47,279 nucleotides of DNA, taken from contig CANRCB010000014.1 of assembly GCA_947629015.1 (NCBI GenBank), positions 1 to 47,279 on the forward strand, read 5' to 3'. A model generated the notes under the pieces. The model saw only the letters and a program-made list of their open reading frames with translations, made no database searches and was not told the origin of the DNA. Source of the stretch: an uncultured Gemmiger sp. GTDB lineage: Bacteria; Bacillota; Clostridia; Oscillospirales; Ruminococcaceae. Positions 1,984-47,040 of the stretch are shown here, piece by piece (within the stretch, counting starts at the first letter, position 1; each line of letters opens with the position of its first letter). The position numbers and the translations under genes are program-made.

Positions 1984-2703
1984 ATGGCGGAAGGCGGCAG
2001 GCCGGTGCTGGGCATCCTGGGCGGGCTGGGGCCCGCGGCCAGCGGGTATCTGTACCAGCTGCTCATCGAGCACACCCCCGCCGCCTGTGACCAGGACCAT
2101 CTGGACGTCATCCTCTCCTCCCGCGCGTCGACGCCCGACCGCACCGCCTTTATCACCGGGCGCAGCAAGGCCGACCCGCTGCCGCTGATGGTCCATGACG
2201 CCAGGGCGCTGGTCGATTACGGCGCCACCGTGCTGGCCATCGCCTGCAACACCGCGCATTATTTTTACGAGCAGATCGCGGCCGCCGTGGCGCCGGTGCC
2301 GGTGCTGCATATGCCGGCGCTGGTGGCCAAAGAGGCGCAGGCCCGCGGCTGCCGCAAGCTGGGGCTGCTGGCCACCGACGGCACCCTGCAGGGCCTGACC
2401 TACCAGCTGGCCTGCCGGCAGGCGGCGCTGCCGTGGGCGGCGCCCGGCGAGGCGCACCAAAAGGCGCTGATGCGCGTTATCTATGAGGACATCAAGCGCG
2501 GCCGCCGCGCCGATATGGCCGCCTTTAACGCCGCCGTGGAGGACTTGAAGGCGCAGGGCTGCACCCACGCGGTGCTGGGCTGCACCGAGCTGAGCCTTGT
2601 CAAGCGGGACGAGCACCTGCCGGACGGTTTTTTCATCGACAGCACCGAGGTGCTGTGCCGCGCGGCCCTTGCCGCCTGCGGCAAAACGCCTGTGGGGCTT
2701 TGA
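1984..2703 (+). CDS. Aspartate/glutamate racemase family protein
   Basis: A cofactor-independent amino-acid racemase that would interconvert L- and D-aspartate or a related acidic amino acid using two cysteines. The family signature GILGGLGPAAS is at residues 10-20, the first catalytic cysteine is in ACNTAHYF (C88) and the second in GCTEL (C200). Length is 239 aa, usual for the family. The start ATG is preceded by AAAGGGGGCGG and by a clear promoter. It is a single-gene transcription unit; the stop codon is followed at once by a heptad element. It could equally act on glutamate or another substrate, because specificity is not readable from these motifs. Confidence 0.85.
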   Translation: MAEGGRPVLGILGGLGPAASGYLYQLLIEHTPAACDQDHLDVILSSRASTPDRTAFITGRSKADPLPLMVHDARALVDYGATVLAIACNTAHYFYEQIAAAVAPVPVLHMPALVAKEAQARGCRKLGLLATDGTLQGLTYQLACRQAALPWAAPGEAHQKALMRVIYEDIKRGRRADMAAFNAAVEDLKAQGCTHAVLGCTELSLVKRDEHLPDGFFIDSTEVLCRAALAACGKTPVGL

Positions 2704-2812
2704 AAAGTGTTGAAAGTGGAACGTGGAAAGTGGAGATATTGACATCATTTTAAACCCGTGCCCGAAGGGCACACAAAAACTCCACTTTCCAAACTCCACT
2801 TTCCAAACTTCC
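2704..2812. repeat. Heptad element, copy 1 (racemase-metG gap)
   Basis: A left purine arm of 7-nt units (AGTGGAA, CGTGGAA, AGTGGAG) at 2714-2735 leads into the core TTTTAAACCCGTGCCC (from 2748) with its partner GGGCAC (2768-2773). A pyrimidine arm (CTCCACT, TTCCAAA) follows at 2780-2809. The terminal sequence AAGTGTTGA begins 2 nt after the racemase TGA. The arms are mutually complementary, so the element can fold as a long hairpin. Confidence 0.75.
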
Positions 2813-4860: not shown

Positions 4861-5072
4861 AAGGCCGTAGGGGGCGGCGTCCCCGACGCCCCGGCCCTTG
4901 CCGCAAATGCCATTTCTGGGCAATTTGTAGGGCGGGCGTTCACGCCCGCCGTAGCGGGATGAGGGCATCCCGCCCTACGGGGATACGAGGAAACGTACCG
5001 TTTACTCCGTAGGGGCCGATTACAATCGGCCCGCAAGTCGCGAGAAACGTATCGCCCATCTGTAGGGCGGGG
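4861..5072. repeat. GTAGGG palindromes (R4) and an R6 module after metG
   Basis: R4 units are hairpins bounded by GTAGGGCGGG and CCCGCCCTAC. One unit spans 4928-4978 with two internal hairpins, and a GTAGGGGGCG variant is at 4868. R6 (4991-5072) starts AAACGTACC, contains the hairpin GGGCCGAT-TACA-ATCGGCCC and ends GAGAAACGTATC...TGTAGGGCGGG. Two further R6 copies are at 14462 and 46944. No gene is present here. Confidence 0.7.
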
Positions 5073-5332: not shown

Positions 5333-5459
5333 CCCCATCAGTCAGCGCCTTGCGGCGCTGCCAGCTTCCCCCAGAGGGGGAAGCCTTCCGAGGTATCTCA
5401 CTCTTAAAGCCTTCCCCCTCCGGGGGAAGGTGGCCGCGCAGCGGCCGGATGAGGGGCCG
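5333..5459. repeat. R5 repeat (CCCCTCATC-hairpin-AGCTTCCCCC)
   Basis: A stem CAGCGCC-TTGC-GGCGCTG (5343-5360) is followed by AGCTTCCCCC...GGGGGAAGCC, TTCCGAGGTATCTCACTCTT, a second CTTCCCCC...GGGGGAAG palindrome and an inverted hairpin copy ending GGATGAGGGG. Related copies are at 19426, 19648, 42011 and 42216, with different but still paired stem sequences. Confidence 0.7.
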
Positions 5460-5479
5460 GGGTTTTTTACCCGCTGCGT

Positions 5480-5613
5480 GGCACAGTTTAAATAAAGGAT
5501 ACCAGACCCTCTTATCTCTTATCTCTTATCTTTTATCTCTTATCTTTTATCTCTTATCTTTTATCTCTTATCTTTTATCTCTTATCTTTTATCTCTTATC
5601 TTTTATCTCTTAT
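5480..5613. repeat. Heptad element, copy 2: TTATCTY array before tatD
   Basis: An inverted core (GTGGCACAGTTTAAA, about 5478-5492) is followed by about 15 tandem 7-nt units alternating TTATCTC and TTATCTT (5508-5613). On the other strand the unit is AGATAAR, so it fits the AG-NNN-AR grammar of the AGTGGAR arrays elsewhere. The array ends 30 nt before the tatD start codon. Confidence 0.8.
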
Positions 5614-8467: not shown

Positions 8468-9289
8468 TCAGCCAAAGATGTACGCGAGGTAGGCGTCGTT
8501 CGCGGCTTCCTGCGCGGCCTTCTTCGCGGCAACGGCCTCCATGTAGGCGTCGTTCTTGGCCAGCTGGTTGGCCTTGCGGGCGGCACCCTCGGCCACAACG
8601 GCGGCGTAGTCGGCGTTCGCCTTGGCGGTGCACTTGGCGCTGTAGGCATCAACGGCATCCAGATACGCCTCGTTCTGGGCGTCGATCTTCGCCTGGTTGG
8701 CCTTCACGGCAGCCATGTAGGCGTCGTTCTTGGCCAGCTGGTCAGCCTTCTTCGCGGAGACGGCAGCCATATACGCGTCATTCTCGGCGAGCTGCGCGGC
8801 TTTGCGGGAAGCGCCCTCGGCCACGATGGCGGCATAGTCGGCGTTGGCTTTGGCGATGCACTGCGCGGTGTACGCGCTGACGGCATCCAGATACGCCTTG
8901 TTCTGGGCGTCGATCTTCGCCTGGTTGGCCTTCACGGCCGCCATGTAGGCATCGTTCTGGGCCAGCTGCGCGGCCTTCTTCGCGGAGACGGAAGCCATGT
9001 ACGCGTCGTTCTGGGCCAGCTGGTCGGCCTTGCGGGCAGCGCCCTCGGCCACAACGGCGGCATAGTCGGCGTTCGCCTTGGCGGCGCATTTCGCGGTGTA
9101 GGCATCGACGGCGTCCAGATACGCCTGGTTCTGGGCGTCGATCTTGGCCTGGTTGGCCGCGATGGCGTCAAGATACGCCTTGTTCTTGGCTTCCTGCTGG
9201 GCTTTCAGGCCGGCGGCAGAAGCGGGGATCGCAACGCTGAAGCAGGTTGCGGCGACCAGGATCGTGGCAACGATTTTGCGCAGTTTCAT
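8468..9289 (-). CDS. Secreted alanine-rich protein with three 76-residue repeats
   Basis: A 273-aa protein with a clear signal peptide (MKLRKIVATILVAATCFSVA, likely cleavage after ASA near residue 25). The mature part consists of three nearly identical 76-residue repeats (45-120, 121-196, 197-272), each starting ANQAKIDAQN and each holding one cysteine in the same place (C68, C144, C220). Within repeats, an N-x-A-Y or N-D-A-Y motif recurs every 18-21 residues, and predicted structure is continuous alpha-helix or coiled coil. No sorting signal, lipobox or membrane anchor is visible, so it is probably released or wall-associated. AAGGAGGAA precedes the ATG. I know no named family for it; a role as surface fibre or adhesin is only a guess. 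Confidence 0.85.
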   Translation of the reverse strand: MKLRKIVATILVAATCFSVAIPASAAGLKAQQEAKNKAYLDAIAANQAKIDAQNQAYLDAVDAYTAKCAAKANADYAAVVAEGAARKADQLAQNDAYMASVSAKKAAQLAQNDAYMAAVKANQAKIDAQNKAYLDAVSAYTAQCIAKANADYAAIVAEGASRKAAQLAENDAYMAAVSAKKADQLAKNDAYMAAVKANQAKIDAQNEAYLDAVDAYSAKCTAKANADYAAVVAEGAARKANQLAKNDAYMEAVAAKKAAQEAANDAYLAYIFG

Positions 9290-9640: not shown

Positions 9641-9755
9641 CGTTGAGCAACTTAGGATTTTAGGCTCCGCCGGGCGCACAGGCCGTGTGCCCGGTGCCAA
9701 ACCGGTGCCCGGGCTGGCGGTCCGGGCGCGCGGTCAAAATCTATCCGCCGGGGTG
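9641..9755 (+). ncRNA. preQ1 riboswitch, class III type
   Basis: A leader directly in front of queT. It holds GAGC-AACTTAGGATTTTAG-GCTC (a short first stem whose loop carries GGATTTT), a perfect 10-bp hairpin CCGGGCGCAC/GTGTGCCCGG, and a downstream GGTCAAAATC that can pair with GATTTT to form a pseudoknot next to the ribosome binding region CCGCCGGGGTG. This order and the AACTTAGGATTTTAGGCTCC core match what I recall of preQ1-III riboswitches, known from Faecalibacterium relatives upstream of queT. Control is probably at translation initiation, since no terminator is present. Confidence 0.75.
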
Positions 9756-14170: not shown

Positions 14171-14620
14171 GCGTTGGCTGCCGCGTTCTGCCGGAATTTT
14201 GCTTTTTACCGTTCCTTTTCGTGACCGAAAAGGTCCCGCTGGTTTCGCATGCAGCGGACCCACGACCAAAGGGGGTTCCCCCCTTTGGAATCCCCCGAAG
14301 CAAGATACCCGTCCGGGTGCTTGGGCGGGCGCCATCCCCCGTCCGCCGGACGGACGCCACCTTGCGGCGCCGTCCACGCTCACGCCGCGCTGCGCGCCGC
14401 TATGGGCAGGGCGTGGATTTTGCGGGGCGTCGAGGACGCCGCCCCCTACAAGGACATCGGAAAACGTACCATCCACCCCGTAGGGGCCGGATACATCCGG
14501 CCCGCAAATGCTGAGAAACGTATCATCCATTTGTAGGGCGGGCGTTCACGCCCGCCGCGGCGGGCCCAAGGGCCCGCCCTACAACCGGGATATACGTCTC
14601 CGGCACCCCGGAAACGTCAT
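14171..14620. repeat. Stacked palindromes between secA and azlC (R4, R6 and others)
   Basis: No gene is supported here. The stretch holds a CCAAAGGGGG/CCCCCTTTGG hairpin (about 14266-14287), a GCGGGGCGTC...GACGCCGCCCCCTAC unit (about 14422-14449), R6 copy 2 (14462-14542) whose hairpin reads GGGCCGGAT-ACA-TCCGGCCC, and an R4 unit running from GTAGGGCGGG (14533) to CCCGCCCTAC (14582). Its ending CCGGGATATACGTCTCCG also ends the R4 unit at about 5289-5313. Confidence 0.65.
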
Positions 14621-14638
14621 TTCCCCCTTTTTTCTTTT

Positions 14639-14705
14639 TTCTCTCTTCTTTCTTCTCTCCACTTTCCACTTTCCACTCTCCACTTTCCAAACTCCACTTT
14701 TTTAC
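14639..14705. repeat. Heptad array before azlC
   Basis: 7-nt units YTCTTCT pass into YTCCACT (TTCCACT, TTCCACT, CTCCACT, TTCCAAA, CTCCACT). No TTTAAAC core is visible. The array ends about 30 nt before the azlC ATG and is close to the reverse complement of the array at 19317-19400, upstream of another membrane-permease gene. Confidence 0.7.
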
Positions 14706-19316: not shown

Positions 19317-19400
19317 CCAAAATCGAGAGTGGAGTTTGGAAAGTGGAAAGTGGAGAGAAAAGAGGAGAGAGAAGAAAGAAAAGAGAAGAAATGGGGGCGA
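19317..19400. repeat. Heptad array between trpX and trpY, near the trpY start
   Basis: Purine 7-nt units AGTGGAG, TTTGGAA, AGTGGAA and AGTGGAG pass into AGAAGAA- and AGAAAAG-type units. This is the reverse-complement arrangement of the array at 14639-14705. No TTTAAAC core is visible. Confidence 0.7.
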
Positions 19401-19425
19401 GATGGCGGTTGCGGGCGCGATCTCC

Positions 19426-19760
19426 CAAGGGGGAAGGCTTTTGGAGTGAGATACCTCGGAAGGCTTCCCCCCTTGGGGGAAGCTCAGACTGTCGAAAAAG
19501 GGACGCCAGATGCCTTTTGGAATGTTTGTAGGGGACGGCCTCTGGACGTCCCGCAAACTTTCTGGCGTTGCAACGTTCACGGGGCGTCGAGGACGCCGCC
19601 CCCTACGATTTGCCATATAATTGCAACCGACTTTTTTGACATACTGGGTTTCCCCCCTTGGGGGAAGCTGTCGCCGCAGGCGACTGATGAGGGGGATAGG
19701 ATGCCGGTTTGCGGGGCGTCGGGGACGCCGCCCCCTACGATTTACCCGGCAACATCATTC
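19426..19760. repeat. R5, R3 and R4 repeats stacked within the transporter operon
   Basis: An inverted R5 block (19426-19484) runs directly into an R3-like element of 163 bp (19485-19647). Its ends CAGACTGTCGAAAAAG and CTTTTTTGACATACTG are imperfect terminal inverted repeats (13 of 16 match). Inside is a GTAGGGG...CCCCCTAC unit. A second inverted R5 (GGGGGAAGCTGTCGCC to GATGAGGGGG, 19658-19696) and another GGGGCGTCGGGGACGCCGCCCC hairpin follow. The rest of the gap to 19870 shows no gene. Confidence 0.7.
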
Positions 19761-19872: not shown

Positions 19873-19978
19873 AAAGTGGAATGTGGAAAGTGAAAAGTGG
19901 AGAAAATGGTCTTATTTAAACCGTGCCGCGCTGCGGCACACCATCGCTCCACTTTCCACTCTCCACTCTCAACACTTA
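19873..19978. repeat. Heptad element between trpX and trpY, with core
   Basis: The purine arm (AGTGGAA, TGTGGAA, AGTGAAA, AGTGGAG) leads to the core TTTAAACCGTGCCGC-GCT-GCGGCAC (19917-19939), then the pyrimidine arm (CTCCACT, TTCCACT, CTCCACT, CTC) and the terminal AACACTT. It lies about 50 nt from the trpX stop codon. Confidence 0.75.
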
Positions 19979-25211: not shown

Positions 25212-25234
25212 TACGCCCTCCTTAAAAGCGGGAT

Positions 25235-25459
25235 TTGGAAAACGGCGGGTGAAGAGAAAAGAGAAGCGTGAAAAGTGAAGAGAGAAGAGATTTGGTGTGC
25301 CGCAAAGCGGCACGATTTAAAAAGCCATTCTCTTATCTTTTATCTCTTATCTCTTATCTTTTATCTCTCGATCTCCCCTTGCCGCTTTTCGGCACGCCCT
25401 CACTCCACTTTCCACTTTCCACTTTCCACTCTCCACTCTCCACTTTCCACTCTCCACAC
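25235..25459. repeat. Heptad element between plsC and ispH-rpsA, mixed units
   Basis: Left arm units AGAGAAA, AGAGAAG, CGTGAAA, AGTGAAG and AGAGAAG (25252-25289) are followed by an inverted core (TGTGCCGC-AAA-GCGGCACGATTTAAA, 25296-25322). A TTATCTY array (25331-25369) is followed by a second hairpin (TGCCG-CTTTT-CGGCA) and a long (Y)TCCACT array (25402-25452). The right end adjoins the plsC stop codon (TTTTGA on the minus strand). Confidence 0.8.
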
Positions 25460-26089
25460 TCAAAACCGGTTCTGTTCGAGCAGGGCCTCCAGCTCCGCCT
25501 TGAGGGTGTTTTTCATACCGCGCAGCGCGGCCACCTTGTGGCCGGGGTCGGTGATGGCAAAGGTGTCGGCGGGGATGACGGGCCCGAAGCACAGCCGCAC
25601 CCGGCAGAAAAAGTGCATTTTGCCGTCCTTTGTGCCGTAGATGATGCGGCAGGGCAGCATGGCCGCGCCGGCCTGCCCGGCGATGAGGAACGCCCCGCCC
25701 TTGAGCGGGCCGAGCGCGCCGGTCTTTGTGCGGGTGCCCTCGGGGAAGATGAGCAGCTTTTTGCCGTTTTTGCACGCGGCGGTGACTTTATCGAGGGTGG
25801 CGGTATCGCCCTTGCCGCGGTCGATGGCCACGGCCCCCAGCTGCCGGAAAAACCACCCCAGCAGCGGGTTTTGGAACAGCTCCTGCTTGGCGAGGATGTT
25901 CATGCGGGACCAATCGCACACGGCGACGGCCACGAACACCGGATCCAGCATCGAGATGTGGTTGGGCGCGACGACCAGCGGCCCCGCAGCCCTGGCGGCC
26001 GCGAGGTTCTCTTTGCCGATGATCTCGACGCGGAACAAAAGATGCACCGCCGCCCACGCCACCAGCAGGATAAACCAGTAAAGCAACAT
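25460..26089 (-). CDS. plsC: 1-acyl-sn-glycerol-3-phosphate acyltransferase
   Basis: Transfers an acyl chain to lysophosphatidic acid, making phosphatidic acid for membrane lipids. It is 209 aa. An N-terminal membrane helix (LLYWFILLVAWAAVHLLF) is followed by acyltransferase motif I NHISMLD (the H-x4-D catalytic pair), motif II with GAVAIDRGKG, motif III FPEGTRT and a motif IV-like region LPCRIIYG. The start is taken as ATG 26089, 43 nt after the cmk stop; the ribosome binding site is weak (GCGGGTG). The longer frame upstream overlaps cmk in another frame and has no acyltransferase similarity. Cotranscription with cmk is likely. Confidence 0.9.
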   Translation of the reverse strand: MLLYWFILLVAWAAVHLLFRVEIIGKENLAAARAAGPLVVAPNHISMLDPVFVAVAVCDWSRMNILAKQELFQNPLLGWFFRQLGAVAIDRGKGDTATLDKVTAACKNGKKLLIFPEGTRTKTGALGPLKGGAFLIAGQAGAAMLPCRIIYGTKDGKMHFFCRVRLCFGPVIPADTFAITDPGHKVAALRGMKNTLKAELEALLEQNRF

Positions 26090-26835: not shown

Positions 26836-27003
26836 TATTATGAAAGTGGAGTTTGGAAAGTGGAGAGTGGAGAGAAAGGAATTTTTTGAAAGAGGAGCCT
26901 GGAAAGCGAGGCGTGAAAAGTGAAACACTTTTTAAACCGTGCCCGCAGGGCACACCATAATTCCACTTTCCACTCTCCACTTTCCACTTTCCACTCTCAA
27001 CAC
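26836..27003. repeat. Heptad element between the HI0933-type gene and cmk
   Basis: Purine units AGTGGAG, TTTGGAA, AGTGGAG and AGTGGAG (from 26840) are followed by divergent units, the core TTTTTAAACCGTGCCC-GC-AGGGCACACC (26931-26955) and a pyrimidine arm of about six (Y)TCCACT units (26961-26996). The terminal CAACACTT supplies the last codons TGT TGA of the neighbouring minus-strand gene. Confidence 0.8.
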
Positions 27004-28229
27004 TTGAAAAGCTGCGTGATCGCCCGCACCGCCGCCTGCGCGGTGCTCCAGGCGATCTGCAGGTTGTAGCCGCCGGTGCGGGCGTCCACATCCAGCACCT
27101 CGCCGGCGAAATACAGCCCCGGGCACAGCCGGCTCTGCATCGTTTTGGGGTCCACCCCGCGCACGTCCACCCCGCCCGCCGTGATGACGGCGTGTTCGGC
27201 ATCGCCCAAGGCACACACCGGCACGCGCCAATGCTTGAGCAGGCGCACCAGCGCGAGCTTCTGCTCCCGCGTGAGCTGGGCGGCACGCAGCGTTTCGGGC
27301 ACGCCCCACCGCGCAAGCGCCGGGGCGCGCATGCTGCGCGGCAGCAGCGGCTCCAGCAAAGCGGGGGCGTTTTTGCCGCCAAGGGCCGCCAGCTCCCGCG
27401 TGAGGCGGTCATAGAGCGCCTTTTCGTCCAGGGCGGGCTTGAGGTCGAACTCGCACACATAGGCGTGGGCGGCGGGATCCTCGACATAGGTCGAGGCCGA
27501 GAGCACCAGCGGCCCCGACAGGCCGAAATGGGTGAACAGCGCCTCGCCCTGTTCGGCAAAAAGCGGCTTTTCATCGCACAAAAGGGTCAGGCGCACGTTG
27601 CGCAGCGCCAGCCCCGCCATGCTGCGGCAGGCCGGGTCCGGGCTTTTGAGGGCGCACAGGCTCGGCTGCGGCGGCACGATGCTGTGCCCCGCCTGCCTTG
27701 CCAGGGCGTAGCCGCTGCCGTCGGAGCCGGTGGCCGGGTAGCTTTCGCCGCCGGTGCAAAGCAGCGTGGCGGCGGCGCGGCAGGCCCGGCCGTCGGCCAC
27801 GGCGCCCGCGCAGGCGCCGTTTTCCAGCAGCAGCGCGCCGGCGTGGGCGGGCAGGAAGGTGCTGCCGGCGGCATACGCGCGCAGCGCGGCCAGCACATCG
27901 GCCGCGCGGTCGCTTTGGGGGAAGACGCGGCGCCCGCGCTCGGTCTTGAGCGGGACGCCAAGGCCCTCGAACAGCTCCATCGCGGCCCGGGGCGGGAACG
28001 CCGCCAAAGCGGAGTACAAAAACCGCGGGTTGCGGCGCACAAAGGGCAAAAACGCCCGCGCGTCACAGTCACTGGTCAGGTTGCAGCGGCCCTTGCCGGT
28101 GAGCAGCAGCTTTTGCCCCGGGCCTTTGGGGTTGTGCTCCACCACCGTGGCCGAAAGCCCCGCCGCGCGCGCGGCGCCGGCGGCCATCAGCCCGGCGGCG
28201 CCGCCGCCGATGATGAGCAGATCCGTCAT
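26997..28229 (-). CDS. HI0933/YhiN-type FAD-binding oxidoreductase
   Basis: A flavoprotein of 410 aa, often annotated as aminoacetone oxidase-like or BaiN-type. The N-terminal dinucleotide-binding motif is IIGGGAAGLMAAGAARAAG; TGKGRCNLTSD, LCTGGESYPATGSDGSGY, THFGLSGPLVLS and the C-terminal FAGEVLDVDARTGGYNLQIAWSTA are all family hallmarks. The physiological substrate is unknown. The last two codons, Cys and stop, fall in the conserved end of the adjoining heptad element. The gene overlaps the SGNH gene stop by 4 nt and heads toward cmk. Confidence 0.9.
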   Translation of the reverse strand: MTDLLIIGGGAAGLMAAGAARAAGLSATVVEHNPKGPGQKLLLTGKGRCNLTSDCDARAFLPFVRRNPRFLYSALAAFPPRAAMELFEGLGVPLKTERGRRVFPQSDRAADVLAALRAYAAGSTFLPAHAGALLLENGACAGAVADGRACRAAATLLCTGGESYPATGSDGSGYALARQAGHSIVPPQPSLCALKSPDPACRSMAGLALRNVRLTLLCDEKPLFAEQGEALFTHFGLSGPLVLSASTYVEDPAAHAYVCEFDLKPALDEKALYDRLTRELAALGGKNAPALLEPLLPRSMRAPALARWGVPETLRAAQLTREQKLALVRLLKHWRVPVCALGDAEHAVITAGGVDVRGVDPKTMQSRLCPGLYFAGEVLDVDARTGGYNLQIAWSTAQAAVRAITQLFKC

Positions 28230-34474: not shown

Positions 34475-34580
34475 TAAGTGTGGAGAGTGGAAAGTGGAGA
34501 GCCTGCCGCAGTGTTTTTTAACACGGCGCGCAGCGCCGTACCGCAACTCCACTTTCAACTTTCCACACTCCACATTATGA
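34475..34580. repeat. Heptad element between tpiA and gpmI
   Basis: AAGTGTGGAGAGTGGAAAG (34475 onward), the core TTTTTTAACACGGCGC-GCA-GCGCCGT (34513-34538), then CTCCACT, TTCAACT and TTCCACACTCCAC (34547-34575). The core hairpin here is ACGGCGC/GCGCCGT instead of GTGCC/GGCAC, a compensated change relative to the other copies. Confidence 0.75.
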
Positions 34581-42010: not shown

Positions 42011-42311
42011 TCCCCTCATCCGTCGCCTTTGGCGACAGCTTCCCCCGGAGGGGAAAGCCCAGACTGTCGAAAAAACGATAGTTGCCTTATGGATGTGTGT
42101 AGGGCGGGCTCTTGAGCCCGCCGGAAAACGTCGTTGCAGCGGCAAGGGGGCGCGGCGGGGGCAAGCCCCCGCCCTACAATCTGCGGGAACGTATCGTCTG
42201 TCCCGCAAACGGCATCCCATTCCCCTCATCAGTCGCCTTTGGCAACAGCTTCCCCCGGAGGGGGAAGCCTTCGGGAGCATCTCCCTCTTAAAGCCTTCCC
42301 CCTTGGGGGAT
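42011..42311. repeat. R5-R3-R5 repeats between htrA and the YcxB-like gene
   Basis: R5 (42011-42058: CCCCTCATC, hairpin GTCGCC-TTT-GGCGAC, AGCTTCCCCC...) joins an R3 core (42060-42180) nearly identical to 17353-17474, then a full R5 (42216-42311) whose right end carries the last codons of the YcxB-like gene. The remaining 41821-42010 is the htrA leader and shows no gene. Confidence 0.7.
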
Positions 42312-46778: not shown

Positions 46779-47040
46779 TCCCGCAGGGGCCGATCATGAC
46801 CGGCCCGCAAAAGGGTTGCCGTTTGCGGCGGCATGAGGGCCGCCGCCCTACGGGGATGTGGGGAAATGTATCCTTTATTCCGTAGGGGCCGATTGCCCCC
46901 GCCGCGGCGGCATGAGGATATGCCGCCCTGCGGAGATATAAGAAAACGTACCATACACCCCGTAGGGGCCGATTACAATCGGCCCGCAAATCGCGAGAAA
47001 CGTAGCATCCATTTGTAGGGCGGGGTCTTGACCCCGCCGT
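46779..47040. repeat. R4/R6 palindrome stack at the right end
   Basis: Partial R6 hairpins at 46783 (GGGGCCGATCATGACCGGCCC) and about 46882, an R4-like GGCGGCATGAGGGCCGCCGCCC unit, a full R6 (46944-47024) whose hairpin GGGCCGAT-TACA-ATCGGCCC matches the copy at 4991, and a GTAGGGCGGGGTC...GACCCCGCC hairpin (47015-47039). From 47041 to 47205 I see no gene or repeat. Confidence 0.65.

Follow-up and report, generated by a model that had tools for sequence, protein, structure and literature searches.

Among the described systems closest to the DNA analysed here are the 23S rRNA intervening sequences, the heptamer repeats (in cyanobacteria, Elhai's repeats and the STRRs), the REP/REPIN sequences with RAYT, and the MITEs. 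The 23S rRNA intervening sequences of Leptospira and Coxiella combine an S23p gene with paired flanks; in Coxiella, as described in PMC4990558, the S23p ORF lies behind three tandem heptamers whose number varies between strains, RNase III excises the sequence from the RNA, and S23p is suggested not to be made in vivo. The heptanucleotide LSSRs (Mrazek 2007), such as GGGAATC and GGGGAYT in Xanthomonas and Nostoc, TAACTGA in Beggiatoaceae, and the cyanobacterial STRRs, are also of period 7, intergenic, patchy, and sometimes inverted, and the heptamer excess and the idea of a polymerase footprint behind it are Mrazek's, as told in PMC4679880 and PMC4692102. According to the same sources, repeat differences between two Cyanothece strains are mostly 7-nt steps (PMC4679880), and Rehm et al. 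generally do not find their own heptamers with mobile elements (PMC4692102). REP/REPIN sequences, according to PMC3733652, are likewise short, dispersed, intergenic palindromes in many copies, and MITEs are ORF-less, with inverted ends and an apparent parent element.

The window, by which we mean the whole stretch of 47,279 nucleotides that was analysed, is contig 14 of a 2.21 Mb assembly that is 87% complete. Its hairpins carry tandem 7-nt units above chance, as the heptanucleotide LSSRs do, and, unlike those repeats as the available parts of the literature describe them, have a core hairpin and a link to S23p. In contrast to the 23S rRNA intervening sequences, which lie inside 23S genes, the units considered here are intergenic, and their copies in the window have no ORF; S23p is encoded in relatives with like arms and was not found in the host genome. 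The window hairpins differ from REP/REPIN in lacking a GTAG tag and a flanking RAYT gene and in having long heptad arms, and from MITEs in that no transposase was identified; the relatives are too diverged to define exact junctions, an empty site, or a target duplication. Literature titles and abstract openings yielded no report that ties S23p genes in general to heptad arms, Coxiella being one case.

The initial annotation had marked eight intergenic sites with tandem 7-nt units, and such units are present at all eight (Table 1). The sites all lie between protein genes, none of them within a 23S rRNA gene, and the adjoining genes include those for MetRS, TatD, SecA, an IspH/S1 fusion, cmk, an HI0933-like flavoprotein, TIM, and iPGM. 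In the full elements the ends pair into a long stem, which they do not in the half forms; the strand 26836-27010, taken as RNA, has a folding energy of -79.6 kcal/mol, with a z score of -10.6 relative to 200 shuffles. Triplex DNA was considered as a description and rejected, since the motifs described in PMC4666352 differ in shape from the window hairpins. The half forms, two in the window and others at L177 7415-18345 and L184 6333-6430, have a single arm of TGG followed by AAR units, and these arms end in a common G-rich tail (ATGGGGG..); the half forms are a second repeat type in the host genome. The window also holds other dispersed GC-rich palindromic repeats of the CCGTAGGGGCCG.. and CTTCCCCC..GGGGGAAG types (4970-5021, 14441-14492, 46843-46974, 5362-5425, 19411-19484, and 42246-42309), a tandem repeat of 2.9 copies of 228 nt at 8489-9158 in a region open on both strands, and a PreQ1-III riboswitch at 9645-9753 (Rfam RF02680); at gathering scores, Rfam gave one match in the window and none at the hairpin sites. 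Palindromes of GTAG type, as judged by eye, lie apparently in frame inside RAYT-like reading frames at L178:10117-10602, L197:5170-5712, L198:5135-5629, and L199:5158-5661.

Table 1. Coordinates of the heptad elements in the window
Feature	Position	Strand	Description
Full palindromic element	26842..27006	+	between cmk and HI0933-like flavoprotein gene
Arms of the 26842..27006 element	purine ~26842-26930, pyrimidine ~26961-27006		pyrimidine arm ending CAACACTT
Core hairpin of the 26842..27006 element	26931..26958	+	TTTAAACCGTGCC..GGCACACCAT; reverse complement GGTGTGCC..GGCACGGTTTAAA
Element with degenerate AGTGGAR arms	2702..2812	+	core from 2748; flanked by racemase and MetRS genes
AGATAAR array	5470..5613	-	14 strict units (15 by TRF), in 14-nt higher-order repeat
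Surroundings of the AGATAAR array	5470..5613	-	core-like hairpin at left edge; ahead of TatD gene
Half form	14627..14697	-	AGTGGAR then AGAAGAR/AGAAAAR units; second arm absent
Half form	19326..19392	+	AGTGGAR then AGAAAAR/AGAAGAR units
Full element	19873..19978	+	purine arm, core 19915-19945, pyrimidine arm
Composite of two elements	25227..25461	.	AGAGAAR/AGTGAAR arm, core, AGATAAR arm, second core, AGTGGAR arm
Element with variant core	34475..34572	+	core TTTTTTAACACGGCGC..GCGCCGTACC; between TIM and iPGM genes

Six of the eight sites have chains of three or more strict AGNNNAR units (5511-5608, 14629-14684, 19342-19390, 19947-19967, 25332-25366 with 25403-25451, and 26961-26995), the chains at 2704 and 34475 being shorter or degenerate, and several arms contain units that break the rule (TTTGGAA, ACGTGGA, AGTGTTG). 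The window has six arrays of period 7, four of period 14, one of period 11, and none of periods 5, 6, 8, or 9, and 20 first-order shuffles of it gave no period-7 array. Among short periods only 7 carries real weight, in the window and beyond it: stretches of the host genome selected for holding arrays (395,174 bases) contain 38 period-7 and 17 period-14 arrays, with four at 6, three at 9, one at 11, eight at 12, and none at 4, 5, 8, 10, or 13. Three successive AGNNNAR units match 192 times in these stretches, and the same letters spaced at units of 6, 8, and 9 match 0, 0, and 5 times, respectively; a reversed-pattern control gave 70 matches against 150 and is not independent, because the reversed pattern also fits AGTGGAR arrays. 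In 50 strict arrays, TGG occupies the middle of the unit 141 times, ATA 44, AAA 32, AAG 28, TGA 13, and AGA 12, with rarer others, and direct changes between units run 12 times from TGG or CGG to an A-initial triplet and never the reverse, with five changes from other triplets to TGG or CGG. By a strict unit list, 20 of 43 host sites read purine then pyrimidine and none the other way round, while 14 have purine units only and nine pyrimidine units only. The higher-order repeat at 5509-5613 (7.5 copies of 14 nt, 98%) looks like what slippage by two units leaves, and together with the published strain differences it lends support to slippage in 7-nt steps, slippage being one of the two processes that the initial annotation had proposed for the growth of the arms.

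Three successive AGTGGAR units match 66 times in the host genome and in none of 34 congeners, and elsewhere in the 297 family genomes only in G144 (15), G231 (3), and G222 (1); the exact core, which on the opposite strand reads GGTGTGCC-loop-GGCACGG-TTTAAA, has five copies in the host genome and none in the 34 other genomes of the genus. The expansion of AGTGGAR and the core would therefore be recent or imported. One flanking protein, scanned against relatives, matched two Gemmiger genomes at 78% identity and one of the Oscillospiraceae at 48%, and very near genomes may be missing from the set. The junction between the flavoprotein stop and cmk was readable at 29 of 30 loci, the host's included, and 25 of the 29 spacers are without a heptad array, two of them (L117, L134) with other inserts and the rest short. 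Four genomes share the layout at this junction with different letters, namely AGTGGAR in the host, ATTAGGA/ATGAGGA in G033, and AATAATA/AAGAATA in G007 and G015; the window, taken together with 31 stretches around the flavoprotein gene of at most 20 kb each (583,289 bases in all), holds 14 period-7 arrays, all in these four genomes, with none at periods 4, 5, 6, 8, 10, or 13, three at 9, one at 11, two at 12, and four at 14. Period and layout are thus common across species and the heptad letters are local. In G007 and G015 the AATAATA arms, with two inner hairpins, enclose a complete ORF of PF05635 (23S_rRNA_IVP), the small four-helix protein S23p of 23S rRNA intervening sequences. Between mnmE and mnmG an S23p element is present in G007, G015, and G003 and absent in G014, a close relative with 96% identity to G007 over the MnmG piece; the locus was available in 30 of 35 genomes and the anchor found in 28, of which no others reached 16 of 21, and exact junctions could not be defined because the spacers are too different. 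These comparisons rest on one genome per species.

The association with S23p is not confined to these loci. A profile built from eight of the proteins matches 2rld at E 1.1e-50 and 2gsc weakly (E 0.022), and family search places S23p in five of 35 genus genomes and none of 14 control genomes, with arms on both sides at four of the five genus loci and on one side in G005. Within the wider family, S23p occurs in 47 of 297 genomes (43 above the cut-off), and 64 of 76 places were examined, the 12 short or weak ones being excluded. S23p genes were picked by family membership alone for the array counts, and within 350 nt of them a period-7 array occurs in 60 of 128 flanks (59 of the 125 flanks of at least 150 nt), as opposed to 0 to 2 flanks for each other period from 5 to 12; 41 of the 64 loci have an array on at least one side, and 23 have none at this stricter cut. 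Gene controls, which come from one genus, gave 3 of 56 flanks for the flavoprotein (28 loci) and 0 of 12 for Y1 transposases (6 of 10 loci). A tblastn search returned 25 plasmid records with S23p, 14 of which were taken for host variety before their flanks were inspected (four from Nostoc, and one each from Dolichospermum, Euhalothece, Planktothrix, Anabaena, Gloeocapsa, Pseudanabaena, Treponema saccharophilum, Bernardetia, Chlorohelix, and Monoglobus); a period-7 array lies within 400 nt in 20 of 28 flanks and at 12 of 14 loci, the misses being Nostoc L295 and Monoglobus L283, the latter narrowly failing the cut at 15 and 16 of 21, and the positive loci therefore span Cyanobacteriota, Spirochaetota, Bacteroidota, and Chloroflexota. 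Viral S23p genes gave 17 of 24 flanks of 400 nt and 11 of 12 loci, with 0 or 1 at other periods in the plasmid and viral flanks together. Over all 90 S23p loci, which the distance control spans, arrays occur in 94 of 173 segments within 350 nt and in 14 of 444 farther away (5/169, 6/169, and 3/106 in the next three distance bins). On plasmids, S23p often lies inside putative defence operons: L291 (cas2/cas1), L294 (csx2/cas1), L283 (hsdS-hsdR), L285 and L290 (helicase and methylase genes), and L293 (DUF1156 and HEPN genes).

At a slightly looser cut (16 of 21), 40 of the 90 loci are two-sided, 22 have an array only 5', seven only 3', and 21 have none. Arms at two-sided loci are inverted in 36 cases and direct in four, and the mean pairing energy is -26.4 kcal/mol between the two arms of one locus and -6.7 where the arms come from different loci, 111 of 1560 cross-locus pairings being as good. 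Two layouts can be distinguished: in layout 1 the order is arm, hairpin, S23p, hairpin, and inverted arm, and in layout 2 both arms lie 5' of S23p, often behind a tRNA gene. For layout 2, ARAGORN finds at 13 of 19 loci (L244, L245, L247, L248, L252, L260, L263, L264, L267, L269, L270, L271, and L281) a same-strand tRNA gene whose end is no more than about 260 nt 5' of S23p; the arrays surround the terminator hairpin of the tRNA gene. Upstream of position 1501 in L228, a truncated second S23p start stands beside an intact gene with AATTCGG arrays, which looks as though one element landed inside another. The AG-NNN-AR pattern, which the initial annotation had offered as the grammar of the family, fails as a general rule and is local: of the 69 heptads from S23p loci, 12 (17%) conform to it when any rotation is allowed, no better than letter-shuffled heptads (20%, with 10% for random ones), and relatives use the same layout with other heptads (ATTAGGA, AATAATA, and others). 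A tight bond between heptads and S23p lineage was likewise rejected, the similarity of S23p and that of the heptads being only weakly correlated (Mantel r 0.22, a value that 2 of 5000 permutations attain, with 69 of the 90 loci used) and the signal likely mixed with host descent.

The core joins the window to these loci. It is present at 2704, 19873, 25235, and 26836 and occurs as a variant at 34475, and 11 of 13 loose matches in the host stretches adjoin heptads; the congener stretches (536 kb) and the 26 plasmid and viral S23p loci have no match. Loose matches at S23p loci of the family number three, each flanked by the 5' array on one side and the start of S23p on the other. A stricter form of the core occurs at 20 places in seven of the 297 family genomes, and every one follows an array (15-20 of 21 matches; 16 of the 20 at 17 or more), so that the earlier view of a single hairpin family, with the core accompanying arrays elsewhere, is supported. 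At three places (G170, G239, and G288) the core stands directly ahead of an S23p gene; in G173 the S23p gene that follows it is broken and scores under the family cut-off. The order of array and core is accordingly the same in gene-bearing and gene-less places. The two differ in the position of the pairing array, which in G170, G239, and G288 is found 5' of the first array and behind a tRNA gene, and in the window on the far side of the core. The inner hairpins (ATGGTG...) at the two-sided S23p loci of the genus resemble the core by eye only, and a covariance model, R1, had four pairs only and was set aside.

We think it probable that the window hairpins are related, as MITE-like forms without an ORF, to a small selfish element that carries S23p, and their kinship with S23p elements is fairly well supported: heptad arms flank S23p in distant bacteria, and the window hairpins therefore look like gene-less copies. 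Their arm letters and core are shared with S23p loci of other genera, and the main heptads of the window recur at S23p loci L222 of G144 (AGTGGAA/AGTGAAA) and L215 of G069 (AGATAAR); no parent was found in the host genome. Counted against this reading are the failure to find S23p in the 87%-complete host assembly, the 21 loci without an array and the 29 one-sided ones among the 90 at 16 of 21, the weakness of the correlation between S23p and heptad similarity, the lack of a known catalytic function of S23p and the suggestion that in Coxiella it is not made in vivo, and the occurrence of the exact window core at only three S23p family loci; that these three have layout 2 weakens the reading further. 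The heptad hairpins could instead arise by themselves, through replication slippage (7 nt suiting the polymerase) with hairpin-templated correction, and be kept as terminators or stabilisers of mRNA ends, with S23p genes as guests that insert there. Such an origin, which we hold to be unlikely, draws on Mrazek's heptamer excess and polymerase idea (Mrazek 2007, as told in PMC4679880 and PMC4692102), on the wealth of arrays without S23p in the host genome and G033, and on the tRNA genes and terminators ahead of 13 of the 19 S23p loci tested; yet same-locus arms match far better than arms of different loci, arrays concentrate within 350 nt of S23p, the core hairpin is common to S23p loci and ORF-less sites, and the core and the AGTGGAR arrays are present in the host and in none of 34 congeners.

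Movement of REP/REPIN-type repeats by a RAYT (Y1) transposase appears very improbable. RAYT-like proteins (NCBIfam NF047646 at 57 to 83 bits, only that of G033 exceeding the cut-off of 80) do occur in all four genomes that have a hairpin at the flavoprotein-cmk junction (the host, G007, G015, and G033), and also in G014, G025, and G027. The core, however, has no GTAG tag, and the nearest arrays lie 1.3 kb (host), 2.1 kb (G033), and more than 4 kb (G007, G015) from the RAYT-like gene. The RAYT genes inspected carry other palindromes, of GTAG type as judged by eye, inside or beside them, and because RAYT-like genes go with these, this form of mobilisation was set aside. That the hairpins are non-mobile structured regulatory RNAs or terminators would agree with their strong folding and their intergenic, post-stop positions, and is nevertheless a poor prospect, given that Rfam has no match at the sites at gathering scores and that most orthologous junctions of congeners are without a hairpin.

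If the window hairpins are indeed kin to S23p elements, the complete form of the element would be an S23p gene beside pairing heptad arms and short hairpins. Slippage would set the length of the arms, with gain and loss in 7-nt steps, and the arms may stay pairable because RNase III could cut the RNA stem, the way it excises 23S rRNA intervening sequences; release of the insert by this enzyme could in turn make insertion between genes tolerable. ORF-less copies might then spread in trans via a relative that encodes S23p and that has presumably since been lost from the host genome or was not assembled. S23p, a relative of Avd, is not known to have a catalytic function. The proposal in the initial annotation of a mobilising agent outside the window gains a candidate, the S23p element of relatives, which may act as such an agent.

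What is new here is the association of S23p genes with period-7 arms, in the host family, on plasmids of four other phyla, and on viral contigs. More tentatively, and with somewhat more doubt than belief, we suggest that bacteria may carry a hitherto unrecognised, phylum-spanning class of mobile elements made up of an S23p gene, pairing arms of 7-nt repeats, and ORF-less offspring, a class that could include many unexplained heptamer repeats (the cyanobacterial STRRs and those of Beggiatoaceae, Xanthomonas, and the present host) as well as the 23S rRNA intervening sequences, with S23p recognising or making the arms. The link between S23p and heptads joins two questions, why heptamers dominate among the long simple repeats of many bacteria and what the S23p or 'four helix bundle' proteins do, and, as membership of the S23p family predicts where heptads lie, it renders both testable. 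The heptads become candidate binding or processing sites for S23p, a family with solved structures (2rld, and 2gsc as a weak match).
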